Below the pieces are notes generated by a model. That model saw only the letters and a list, made by a program, of their open reading frames with translations, did not search any database and was not told where the DNA came from. This document shows, piece after piece, positions 30,751 through 43,109 of a stretch of 64,000 bases of DNA. The DNA is from Flavobacterium paronense (GTDB lineage Bacteria; Bacteroidota; Bacteroidia; Flavobacteriales; Flavobacteriaceae). The stretch is taken from NCBI RefSeq assembly GCF_030409795.1, contig NZ_JAUFQN010000019.1:744001-808000 (forward strand), given 5' to 3'. Every line of letters starts with the position of its first letter. Position 1 is the stretch's first letter. Position numbers and translations under genes: made by a program.

Positions 30751-30965
30751 GAGCACTGAAAGTTTCTCGCAAAGAGCGGAGAGAGTTTCACGCAAAGTAC
30801 GCTAAGATTTTCGCAAAGAGCGCAGAGTTTTTTCGCAAAGAGCGCAGAGATTTTTTTAAAGTTTTTGGCAATTAGGGCTTAAGTTTTATGAACCACTTGA
30901 TATAAATAATTTTTACCTTTGTGGCCTTTGCGTGAAATCCTCTGCGCACTTTGCGTGAAATAATA
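30751..30965. repeat. Left CGCAAAG array and direct repeat, copy 1
   Basis: Degenerate TTTCRCGCAAAGMGCGSAGAG units start near 30755. The 100-bp core 30827-30926 recurs at 31454-31553 with only three mismatches by eye. It includes TTTTTGGCAATTAGG and a TACCTTTG (30914-30921) that fits a -7 element, so each copy may bring a promoter to the gene after it. Copy 1 continues with two TTTGCGTGAAA units up to the GxxExxY gene. Confidence 0.9.
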
Positions 30966-30975
30966 TTTTAAAACG

Positions 30976-31353
30976 ATGACTGAAAATGAACTATCCTATA
31001 AAATAATCGGAGTTGTAATTGAACTTCATAAGCAAATAGGACCTGGTTTATTAGAATCTGCTTATGAGAATGCACTGGCTTATGAATTACGTTCTTTGGG
31101 ATTAGAAGTGTCACAACAAGTAGCAATGCCATTTGTTTATAAAGAGGTTCATTTAGATGTTGGGTACAGGATAGATATTTTGGTAGAGAATAAAATTATT
31201 CTTGAAATTAAATCAGTAGAGAGTTTGGCACCGGTTCATTATTCACAACTTTTGACTTATTTGAAATTATCTGATAAACGTTTGGGTTTGTTGGTAAATT
31301 TTAATTCGAAATTGGTTAAAGATTCTATACATAGGATAGTTAATAATTTGTAA
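30976..31353 (+). CDS. GxxExxY protein, predicted PD-(D/E)XK nuclease fold
   Basis: A 125-aa protein of the GxxExxY family. The name motif is seen as GLLESAY (about 26-32 in GPGLLESAYENAL). A PD-(D/E)XK-like core follows: YRIDILVENKIILEIKSV gives the conserved D and the ExK pair near residues 68-81. The family is common in Bacteroidota and other environmental bacteria, and its function is not established. The gene sits between the TviB-like gene and rfbB and is flanked on both sides by near-identical direct repeats built of CGCAAAG units, unlike any pathway gene around it. The repeat copy upstream carries a likely promoter. Confidence 0.9.
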   Translation: MTENELSYKIIGVVIELHKQIGPGLLESAYENALAYELRSLGLEVSQQVAMPFVYKEVHLDVGYRIDILVENKIILEIKSVESLAPVHYSQLLTYLKLSDKRLGLLVNFNSKLVKDSIHRIVNNL

Positions 31354-31612
31354 AGGTTTCACGCAAAGCGCGGAGAGAGTTTCACGCAAAGCGCGCAAAG
31401 ATTTTCGCAAAGCTCGCAGAGAGTTTTTTGAAGTTTCACGCAAAGAGCGCAAAGTTTTTTCGCAAAGAGCGCAGAGATTTTTTTAAAGTTTTTGGCAATT
31501 AGGCCTTAAGTTTTATGAACCATTTGATTTAAATAATTTTTACCTTTGTGGCCCCTGCCTGCCGGCAGGCAGGTTTGCGAAAAAACTTAGCGCACTTTGC
31601 GTGAAAAAAAAA
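31354..31612. repeat. Right CGCAAAG array and direct repeat, copy 2
   Basis: Array units (TTTCACGCAAAGCGCG and similar) at 31357-31453 lead into the second copy of the 100-bp core at 31454-31553. Compared with copy 1, a 20-bp palindrome is inserted between GTGGCC and TTTGCG. TACCTTTG at 31541-31548 could drive rfbB. Confidence 0.9.
31554..31573. repeat. 20-bp perfect palindrome CCTGCCTGCCGGCAGGCAGG
   Basis: It is a perfect palindrome inside copy 2 of the direct repeat, and absent from the same place in copy 1 (between 30926 and 30927). Four near-identical palindromes occur around the toxin-antitoxin pair at 41.9-43.1 kb. Confidence 0.92.
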
Positions 31613-31617
31613 TAACT

Positions 31618-32664
31618 ATGAAAAAGATTTTAATTACCGGCGGAGCAGGATTTATAGGTTCACATGTCGTAAGACGGTTTGTAACTCAATATCCTAATTA
31701 TCAGATTTTCAATTTGGATGCCTTGACTTATGCAGGGAATCTTGAGAACATTGCCGATGTTGACAAATCACCCAATTATACGTTTATAAAAGGCGATATT
31801 GTCGATGCCGATTTCATTACCGATTTATTTCAGCAACATCAATTTGATGGTGTGTTGCACTTGGCTGCCGAGTCGCATGTTGACCGTTCTATTACGGATC
31901 CATTAGCGTTTGTAAAAACCAATGTTATTGGCACAATGAACTTATTGAATGCGGCTAAAACAATTTGGAAGGACAACTTTGAAGGCAAACGTTTCTATCA
32001 TATTTCTACCGATGAGGTGTACGGAAGTTTAGGTGCAGAAGGCTTGTTTACCGAAACTACAGCTTACGATCCAAACTCTCCTTATTCGGCTTCTAAAGCT
32101 AGTTCTGATCATTTTGTCAGAGCTTATGGCGAAACCTATGGATTGCCTTATGTGATTACGAATTGCTCTAACAATTACGGACCCAATCACTTCCCTGAAA
32201 AGCTGGTTCCTTTGTTTATTCATAATATTATCAATAACAAACCGCTGCCAGTTTATGGCGACGGAAAATACACCCGTGACTGGTTGTATGTTATTGACCA
32301 TGCTATCGCTATTGATTTGGTTTTCCATGAAGGGAAGAATCATGAGACTTATAATATTGGGGGCTTTAACGAATGGCAAAATATTGATTTGGTGAAATTA
32401 CTTTGCCGTCAAATGGATACCAAATTGGGTAGGGCAGCAGGCGAGTCTGAAAAGTTGATTACCTACGTAAAAGACAGACCAGGACACGATTTGCGGTATG
32501 CCATTGATGCCTCAAAAATCAACAAAGAACTCGGTTGGAAACCATCGGTTACTTTTGAGCAGGGTTTGGAAAAAACAATTGAGTGGTATTTAGCCAACGA
32601 GGAATGGCTTCGCAATGTAACCTCGGGCGATTATCAAACATATTATCAAAAGCAATACCTTTAA
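31618..32664 (+). CDS. rfbB: dTDP-glucose 4,6-dehydratase
   Basis: A 348-aa extended SDR that dehydrates dTDP-glucose to dTDP-4-keto-6-deoxyglucose, an intermediate for rhamnose and other deoxysugars. Seen are the NAD loop TGGAGFIGSH, LAAESHVDRSI, the catalytic TDEVYGSLG acid/base segment and YSASKASSD with the active Tyr and Lys, and the C-terminal RPGHDLRYAID. The ATG at 31618 gives the normal family start; the frame is open seven codons further upstream into repeat DNA. The usual partners rfbA, rfbC and rfbD are not in the window, so the product may be used by enzymes encoded elsewhere. Confidence 0.95.
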   Translation: MKKILITGGAGFIGSHVVRRFVTQYPNYQIFNLDALTYAGNLENIADVDKSPNYTFIKGDIVDADFITDLFQQHQFDGVLHLAAESHVDRSITDPLAFVKTNVIGTMNLLNAAKTIWKDNFEGKRFYHISTDEVYGSLGAEGLFTETTAYDPNSPYSASKASSDHFVRAYGETYGLPYVITNCSNNYGPNHFPEKLVPLFIHNIINNKPLPVYGDGKYTRDWLYVIDHAIAIDLVFHEGKNHETYNIGGFNEWQNIDLVKLLCRQMDTKLGRAAGESEKLITYVKDRPGHDLRYAIDASKINKELGWKPSVTFEQGLEKTIEWYLANEEWLRNVTSGDYQTYYQKQYL

Positions 32665-41886: not shown

Positions 41887-42048
41887 TTTTCATGCAAACC
41901 TGCCTGCCGGTAGGCAGGGGGCGCAAAGGTTCACGCTTTCTTTGTAATGGCAAGATTATTCGTTTTCAGTTGTCTGTTTTCTGTTATTTGTAATCCGTTA
42001 TTTGTTTTCATGCAAACCTGCCTGCCGGCAGGCAGGGAGCGCAAAGGT
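41887..42048. repeat. Left 160-bp repeat of the toxin-antitoxin pair
   Basis: It holds two copies of TTTTCATGCAAA + palindrome + GCGCAAAGG, with palindromes at 41899-41918 and 42017-42036 (118 bp apart). Between them are a TTCACGCTTTCTTTG segment and GTTAT-type heptamers. The right copy is 42946-43109. 42049-42257 continues with CGCAAAG remnants and CCCGCCTCCGCGGGA, and no gene start is supported there. Confidence 0.9.
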
Positions 42049-42257
42049 TTTTATGCAAAAAAAACGCAAAGTTTCACGAGATTTGGGGAATGACAGGGTT
42101 GTTTGTTTCCCGCCTCCGCGGGAATGACAAGTTATCCGTTGCCTATCATCTATTTTGTTTTAATACCAGACGAAAAGGATTGGGTTTGGTCGAATCTTTG
42201 ATTTCGGTAGTGTTGGGAATTTTTTATAAAAATAGTTTCACTTTAGAGCAACTTTTA

Positions 42258-42269: not shown

Positions 42270-42617
42270 ATGGATAATGAACAAAAGATACGTACTGTTA
42301 TTTTTTACAAAGATTACTTTGATGAATTTTTTATAAAGCAACGTGATAAAGTTAAAAACAAAATTATCTGGACATTTGAATTAATTCAAGAATTAGAAAG
42401 AGTTCCAGAAACGTATCTTAAACATATTGAAAATACTGAAGGATTATATGAAATTAGGGTTCAACAAGGAAGCGATATTTTTAGAATCTTTTGTTTTTTT
42501 GATCAAGGTCAATTAATAATCTTAGCAAACGGATTTCAAAAGAAAACACAAAAGACACCGAAAAAAGAAATTGAAAAAGCAATTAAAATAAAACAGGAAT
42601 ATGAAAGCGAAAAGTAA
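42270..42617 (+). CDS. RelE/HigB-type toxin
   Basis: A 115-aa protein of the RelE/ParE superfamily in the HigB (phage gp49-like) style. It has an N-terminal strand TVIFYKDYFDEFF, helices with VKNKIIWTFELIQELERVPETYLKHIE, the core GLYEIRVQQGSDIFRIFCFFDQGQLIILANGFQKK with the basic residues expected for ribosome-dependent mRNA cleavage, and a Lys-rich end (TPKKEIEKAIKIKQEY). The frame is open 60 codons upstream, but the ATG at 42270 fits the family start and the -7 element. The toxin precedes the antitoxin and overlaps it by 17 bp, the HigBA order. The pair is bordered on both sides by long repeats. Confidence 0.88.
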   Translation: MDNEQKIRTVIFYKDYFDEFFIKQRDKVKNKIIWTFELIQELERVPETYLKHIENTEGLYEIRVQQGSDIFRIFCFFDQGQLIILANGFQKKTQKTPKKEIEKAIKIKQEYESEK

Positions 42618-42906
42618 TATTACTAAAACACTCGACCAATTTAAAGATAAACATTATGGAAAAGTTGGCACTGCAAAACGGGATGAACTTGATGCGGGTT
42701 ATGAAAATTTTAAAATTGGAGCAATGATTCATGATGCGCGAATTGAAAAAGGATTGACACAGGAACAACTTGCAGAAAAAACGGGAACAACAAAATCGTA
42801 TATCTCCAAAATAGAAAACAATGTAAAAGAAGCAAGATTTTCAACCTTACAAAAAATAGTTGAACTTGGTTTGGGTGGGCATTTAGAATTGTCAATTAAA
42901 TTGTAA
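42601..42906 (+). CDS. XRE-family HigA-like antitoxin
   Basis: A 101-aa protein with an N-terminal toxin-binding part (1-40, TLDQFKDKHYGKVG) and a helix-turn-helix XRE domain (about 40-95): IGAMIHDARIEKGLTQEQLAEKTGTTKSYISKIE. It should bind the upstream operator and neutralise the toxin encoded just before it. Start codon and reading frame are clear, with the ATG inside the toxin end. The gene ends a few bases before the right-hand repeat. Confidence 0.9.
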   Translation: MKAKSNITKTLDQFKDKHYGKVGTAKRDELDAGYENFKIGAMIHDARIEKGLTQEQLAEKTGTTKSYISKIENNVKEARFSTLQKIVELGLGGHLELSIKL

Positions 42907-42945
42907 ATAGTTTTCTGTTTTCTGTTATTTGTAATCTGTTATTTG

Positions 42946-43109
42946 TTTTCACGCAAACCTGCCTGCCGGTAGGTAGGGAGCGCAAAGGTTCACGCTTTCT
43001 TTGTAATGGCAAGATTATTCGTTTTCAGTTTTTCTGTTTTCTGTTATTTGTAATCCGTTATCAGTTTTCACGCAAACCTGCCTGCCGGTAGGCAGGGGGC
43101 GCAAAGGTT
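42946..43109. repeat. Right 160-bp repeat of the toxin-antitoxin pair
   Basis: It has the same order as 41887-42048, with palindromes at 42958-42977 and 43077-43096 (119 bp apart), and is more than 90 percent identical by eye. The repeat unit continues to about 43145 with AAGATTATTCGTTTTCAG, present also in the left copy. Confidence 0.9.

Follow-up and report, generated by a model that had tools for sequence, protein, structure and literature searches.

A 20-bp palindrome, CCTGCCTGCCGGCAGGCAGG, interrupts a repeat in Flavobacterium paronense and is missing from the sister copy of the same repeat, which raises the question of whether it was inserted there as a mobile unit and, if so, by what means. 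The window, i.e. the whole stretch of 64,000 nucleotides (64 kb) that was analysed, contains five copies of CCTGCCTGCCGGCAGGCAGG with 0-2 mismatches each, where 100 shuffles gave 0 matches (none expected). Its relevant features are:

30760 to 30975, no strand: repeat arm of CGCAAAG words, with the empty site inside
30812 to 30823, plus strand: unfilled word CGCAAAGAGCGC, further at 30834, 31439 and 31461
30926 to 30927, no strand: empty counterpart, GTGGCC directly abutting TTTGCG
30976 to 31353, plus strand: PDDEXK_3 (PF13366) open reading frame (ORF), flanked by the two repeat arms
31355 to 31620, no strand: repeat arm with the filled site, from the arm comparison
31554 to 31573, no strand: perfect 20-bp palindrome between GTGGCC and TTTGCG, exact copy, filled site
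41899 to 41918, plus strand: palindrome, T variant CCTGCCTGCCGGTAGGCAGG, 1 mismatch
42017 to 42036, no strand: perfect palindrome, exact match
42958 to 42977, plus strand: palindrome with two C-to-T changes, 2 mismatches
43077 to 43096, plus strand: palindrome, T variant, 1 mismatch
from 58702: unfilled word CGCAAAGGGCGC, from a sequence scan

The preliminary description of the window had taken the palindrome at 31554 as filled and the sister repeat at 30926 as empty, and had listed near-identical palindromes at 41899, 42017, 42958 and 43077 as well as unfilled forms. All of this is confirmed, the copies with 0-2 mismatches and the unfilled CGCAAAGRGCGC words at 30812, 30834, 31439, 31461 and 58702. 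The GTGGCC/TTTGCG junction was read from the sequence, the aligner's own gap lying a few bases off. Left of the filled site the arms show 4 differences over 115 aligned columns, with a 33-base gap further out; on the right they are alike, yet more diverged than on the left. As read from the junction, the empty paralogue at 30926 corresponds to 31554 without the insert. The PDDEXK_3 gene lies between these similar arms, built of CGCAAAG/CTTTGCG words (30760-31620), and its product belongs to a type presumably also named GxxExxY; nothing was found tying this ORF to palindrome movement.

The unit was also said to have been added repeatedly at related sites, and for the four copies between 41899 and 43096 this does not hold. 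All four have about 20 bp of left flank in common and three of them also about 50 bp of right flank, i.e. they largely represent a larger repeat in several copies rather than four separate clean insertions, and at most some of them may be insertions of their own. A Gp49-like and an HTH gene with a few-base overlap (42273-42906), which we take to be a likely toxin-antitoxin pair, lie between the second and third copies of this group, and at 42108-42123 TCCCGCCTCCGCGGGA, which presumably resembles dRS3/CGTC-type repeats, sits inside TTTCCCGC...GCGGGAATGACAA. With arms of at least 8 (at least 5 G/C) and a loop of at most 5, the inverted repeats in the window are the 31554 and 42017 copies only. 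An Rfam search of the window gave no match at the gathering score, and neither the exact 20-mer nor any description of the palindrome was found in the literature searched, most subscription papers being outside its coverage.

The F. paronense genome (3.64 Mb, 26 contigs) holds the palindrome at 13 distinct places with up to 3 mismatches, in line with the very small repeated unit proposed at the outset; three of the copies (L006, L009, L010) lie inside one longer repeat. Another copy, L007, is located downstream of a seryl-tRNA synthetase gene (PF02403 + PF00587). A 3-kb query of this locus matched in 99 of 101 genus genomes, own included, and 30 loci were read (own and 29 from sister species; the other 69 matching genomes were left out), 12 of the sister loci being compared by alignment as well. 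Both flanks are present in 29/29 sister-species loci, and the palindrome is found in none of the 29, even with 5 mismatches allowed. The gap of nine of them (L373, L375, L376, L377, L379, L380, L381, L400, L401) contains the empty junction GTTAATCTT, where F. paronense reads GTTAA, palindrome, TCTT; the gap at this site in L401 is much longer (833 bases). Since the sisters lack the copy and nine keep GTTAATCTT joined, L007 was gained in the F. paronense lineage, and its junction shows neither duplication nor loss of a base. Thus, the search for empty sites in relatives that had been suggested was successful, the absence of target duplication is borne out by the window pair and nine sister loci, and a palindrome always present in its flanks, with no empty alleles, which would have spoken against insertion, was not seen. 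Where an empty site is readable, the junctions show what appears to be an exact 20-bp insertion without duplication or loss of target. The distribution of the palindrome is patchy: the pattern occurs in 2 of 60 genomes of a first sample of relatives, own included, and in 33/296 genomes and 31/139 genera of a phylum sample, with 0/17 among the other genomes of the own genus in that sample.

The rules of insertion can be read from 245 unique sites, 44 of them from one genome, which were obtained from all bacterial loci then fetched by removing duplicate flanks and near-end sites. Nested in another copy (up to 5 differences allowed) are 24 sites, 14 of the 44 in the one genome vs 10/201 elsewhere, leaving 221 non-nested ones. 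Every nested site with an oriented inner copy (21/21) takes the insert at 11|9, counted along the strand with the C-to-T changes, and nesting builds towers of up to three levels (L313). At 96 oriented non-nested sites position -1 holds a purine in 91 cases, C in 5 and T in 0, and a purine|G/T step is found at 77 of the 96 vs 25% at shifted neighbouring positions; 72 fit this step on the wobble strand only, 5 on the other only, 5 on both and 14 on neither. The 72 vs 5 strand fit, together with the 11|9 nesting, indicates that insertion has a polarity relative to the target. Flank base counts reveal no fixed target tetranucleotide, only the purine|G/T preference, and the idea of related insertion sites is in general not supported: apart from this step and the bias towards hairpin loops, the target sites are unrelated in sequence.

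Direct repeats at the junction measure 0, 1 or 2 bases in 121 of the first 127 sites; zero-length repeats are found at 77 of the 127 vs 90 in shuffles and 7-bp repeats at 4/127 vs about 0 in shuffles. Repeats of 7-8 bp occur at 9/221 non-nested sites, lying in arrays of 7-bp words, and we tentatively attribute them to these pre-existing arrays. Many insertions lie within arrays of about 7-bp words such as TATCAAG (L262, L266, L267, L276, L277, window 42940-43070). A constant target duplication and a fixed target sequence are both ruled out by the junction and flank counts. Strong stems around the junction (score of at least 16) are present at 25/219 non-nested sites vs a permuted mean of 13 (p 0.0002); at a score of at least 14 there are 34 sites vs 25 expected (p 0.025), at 10 or more 40% of sites vs 35% at control positions, and an earlier set (118 of 127 sites) gave the same stem peak at the junction. 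Most non-nested sites have no strong stem. Apart from nesting, the preference for loops is slight, and weak once the threshold is lowered. Altogether, the counts show an insertion that uses a preferred strand, occurs mostly at purine|G or T and favours hairpin loops, above all the loop of the palindrome itself, whose DNA strand folds into an 8-bp stem closed by a CCGG loop.

Strand counts were made on contig strands, not on replication direction: the single-T copies listed for a 206-copy genome (G086) split 17 to 17 when counted by eye, and a single contig often has both directions, and the T-variant copies of another (G095) run 21 to 5 toward one contig strand, whole contigs alike. The G095 skew (L262, L266, L267, L271, L276, L277) may stem from a replication bias or from how the word arrays are oriented.

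Searching one genome per species yielded at least 119 stretches with the palindrome, and IMG/VR another 41. Among the matches listed, the near-identical 20-mer stands under record titles of about 12 phylum-level groups by our own grouping (Bacteroidota, Patescibacteria, Omnitrophota, Nitrospirota, Chloroflexota, Planctomycetota, Verrucomicrobiota, an unassigned PVC bacterium, Elusimicrobiota, Stahlbacteria/WOR-3, WOR-1, Spirochaetota and one deltaproteobacterium), those other than Bacteroidota being MAGs or bins by title, so that binning errors could add some phyla; one MAG titled Streptomyces griseus was excluded as doubtful. The named-strain records among the matches listed are all Bacteroidota, e.g. 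Winogradskyella, Flavivirga, Olivibacter, Aquiflexum, Agriterribacter and Salegentibacter. The family pattern CCTRYCTRCCGRYAGRYAGG has 1 to 206 forward-strand matches per genome in 50 genomes picked because they hold a copy, and the reversed pattern has 0 matches in 50/50. As the search patterns pick near-canonical copies, the constancy of the sequence is partly selection. By a crude ORF call, 101 of 163 sites lie between ORFs, 37 inside and 25 at the locus edge, i.e. we find a palindrome in the range of 20-40 bp with many, mainly extragenic copies, as in REPs in the broad sense.

Clustering of 3468 ORFs near the palindrome gave 22 families present in three or more loci, one of which, a GIY-YIG family, was close in all 4 of its loci (14-118 bp); at higher search sensitivity a fifth ORF came to light, 1.8 kb from the palindrome (L050), resulting in 5 in 120 loci, 4 of them within 118 bp. 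Having been picked out of 22 families, GIY-YIG was followed up in other loci. In copy-rich genomes, many small GIY-YIG genes adjoin an intact tRNA and defective tRNA copies. Units of GIY-YIG gene, tRNA and partial tRNA copy, some in tandem, are seen in L037, L184, L185, L187, L213, L218, L236 and L243, the partial copies having a 5' part to about position 28-37 and a 3' part from about 44; L187 has its tRNA directly behind the GIY-YIG match. These units look like a tRNA-targeting mobile unit. A palindrome copy is present in 8/30 GIY-YIG loci, in 7 of them no more than 600 bp from the locus centre. G095, with 32 copies, has long GIY-YIG open frames only (606 and 480 aa) and no small one.

The palindrome lies in the D-arm of defective tRNA copies in L030, L037/L188, L076/L218, L084, L184, L187, L213, L220 and L247 and further in L291, L334, L338 and L437, with a variant of it in L207, whereas other defective copies carry it in the T-loop (L187, L213), probably in the anticodon arm (L195) or in the variable region (L427), these assignments being made partly by eye, aided by BLAST. 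ARAGORN, applied to the short joined flanks, called no tRNA because most of the copies are partial, and in less selected scans tRNA-like sites make up 4/127 sites and 3/48 viral sites, some of them near-duplicates. In L037/L188, L187, L213 and L220 tRNA copies with and without the insert stand side by side in one locus, and the neighbouring ARAGORN-called tRNA is uninterrupted; in L184 ARAGORN called one uninterrupted tRNA-Arg plus the interrupted one. Other short palindromes are found at like places in defective tRNA copies (L178, L197, L203, L214, L236, L243). They are about 16-30 bases long, belong to several sequence families, occur also in L238 and L334, and sit in loops or replace the anticodon arm. 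In loci where ARAGORN found a tRNA, 21 of 48 partial-tRNA breakpoints open with a hairpin of at least 6 pairs, vs 22/960 random (2.3%) and 71/1320 non-ORF positions (5.4%, one locus skipped) in the same loci; about one third of the 21 hairpins are the 20-bp palindrome or part of it, and some are the two sides of one insert.

The overall best explanation for the palindrome, to which we give a probability of roughly 60%, is a tiny, non-autonomous mobile element of REP type. The inserted form would be a folded single strand, with the 8-bp stem and the CCGG loop, which an enzyme supplied in trans, from a gene that does not adjoin the element, would join to a nicked or extruded loop. An HUH-type single-strand DNA transferase would be the likeliest class, judged by chemistry and not by direct evidence, and the near-identity across phyla may be due to horizontal transfer or to wide conservation of the enzyme. 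The preliminary description had proposed a REP-like unit moved by a protein encoded elsewhere; the REP-like mobile unit stands, and that a mobilising protein acts on it we infer.

A host RAYT or IS200-like (Y1/HUH) transposase could move the palindrome directly, as proposed for GTAG REPs. PF01797 is present in 16/18 and NF047646 in 14/16 of the copy-bearing genomes tested, a small set chosen for copies, F. paronense itself has 3 PF01797 matches in a profile search, and both the hairpin shape and the lack of target duplication fit HUH chemistry. Even the G095 skew would fit replication-linked insertion, although G095 is, with G105 (18 copies), one of two genomes without a PF01797 or NF047646 match. 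Moreover, a copy lies near the gene in only 2/30 IS200-like (Y1) and 1/30 RAYT loci read (L152 and L354 being the same place), there is no GTAG outside the hairpin, and no target tetranucleotide is common to the sites. The co-occurrence with RAYT/IS200 genes that had been suggested as a check is thus weak, and direct movement by such an enzyme is doubtful. Near the IS200-like and RAYT-like genes of F. paronense (L015-L017) there are other inverted repeats, not the palindrome. A RAYT or IS200 gene as obvious neighbour is rejected, copies rarely lying near such genes and two genomes being without either. A structure-specific nuclease, e.g. a small GIY-YIG, might instead open hairpin loops or tRNA genes, with repair capturing short palindromic DNA. 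The GIY-YIG-adjacent tRNA copies with their excess of breakpoint hairpins, the several palindrome families at these breakpoints and the 7/30 GIY-YIG loci with a nearby copy argue for such break capture. We consider it unlikely, however, as G095 has only long GIY-YIG frames, the GIY-YIG ORF occurred in just 5/120 loci of the first scan, and break capture alone leaves the same 20-mer across phyla and the strict 11|9 polarity unexplained. As G095 and G105 have no Y1 or RAYT gene and G095 no small GIY-YIG, no tested family is present in all copy-bearing genomes.

Insertion at the RNA level, followed by reverse transcription, would agree with tRNA copies that carry the palindrome in the D-arm, the T-loop, the anticodon arm or the variable region and with the oriented strand being the one with G-T (G-U) wobbles; yet oriented copies between co-directional genes are 20 sense vs 21 antisense, i.e. 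without transcribed-strand bias, which speaks against insertion into RNA and makes this route highly improbable. We give as little credit to a static repeat word that spreads by duplication of longer segments without any insertion. The shared flanks of four window copies and the longer repeat around L006, L009 and L010 are what it would predict, but discarding duplicate flanks still leaves 221 non-nested sites that have no target sequence in common, and the window paralogue and sister species provide clean empty alleles. As a general explanation, segmental duplication is refuted by these distinct-flank sites and empty alleles.

Small palindromic repeats of this type are usually described genome by genome, and the GTAG kind is tied to a transposase. 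Here, nearly one 20-mer under about 12 phylum-level titles, among the matches listed, comes with measurable insertion rules, empty alleles and no linked enzyme, and the spread of orphan REP-like elements thus becomes a directly testable question. The association with tRNA copies and with small GIY-YIG nucleases suggests that tiny hairpin insertions form a broader class. Going further, we tentatively suggest, though it is rather improbable in this full form, that a structure-guided process in many phyla inserts several short-hairpin families into the loops of hairpins and tRNA genes, with fixed strand polarity and via an enzyme other than a known REP transposase; tRNA-linked small GIY-YIG genes may take part, so that defective tRNA copies would accumulate palindromes beside them.

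Among known systems, the ends of IS200/IS605 elements (Y1 transposases) are hairpins, and insertion is strand-specific and without target duplication. The palindrome shares all three properties but has neither a linked transposase nor a fixed target tetra- or pentanucleotide at its left end, where only purine|G/T is found, and with respect to the bias of such elements to the lagging-strand template its strand counts (17 to 17 in G086, 21 to 5 in G095) are mixed. MITEs are small, non-autonomous and cleanly inserted, like the palindrome, which differs in being 20 bp only, in having no separate terminal repeats, and in lacking the constant-length target site duplication of these DDE transposase-dependent elements, a 7-8 bp repeat occurring at just the nine sites mentioned above. 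GTAG REPs carry their tetranucleotide outside the hairpin and often flank RAYT genes (PMC3733652), and atypical Bacteroidetes hairpins flank their own Y1 genes (PMC6006769). With GTAG REPs and their RAYTs (REPtrons) the palindrome has in common a length of 20-40 bp, many mostly extragenic copies and, for a few families reported, insertion within other palindromes (PMC3733652, PMC6006769); on the other side, flank base counts show no terminal GTAG (or GGAG) tag next to the hairpin, few copies lie near RAYT genes (1/30 RAYT and 2/30 Y1 loci read), and nearly one sequence recurs across many phyla. The CGTC REPs, dRS3 and its relatives, have a different tag and no known transposase, and they resemble the palindrome in being short, in occurring in several phyla without a dedicated transposase and in one family reported inside target palindromes (PMC3733652). 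The palindrome has another sequence and, by flank counts, neither end carries CGTC; for it, the present analysis measured empty sites, the strand rule and self-nesting. By the tests made here the palindrome is thus neither a GTAG nor a CGTC REP, although, as far as its sequence tells, it appears to work like a REP element.
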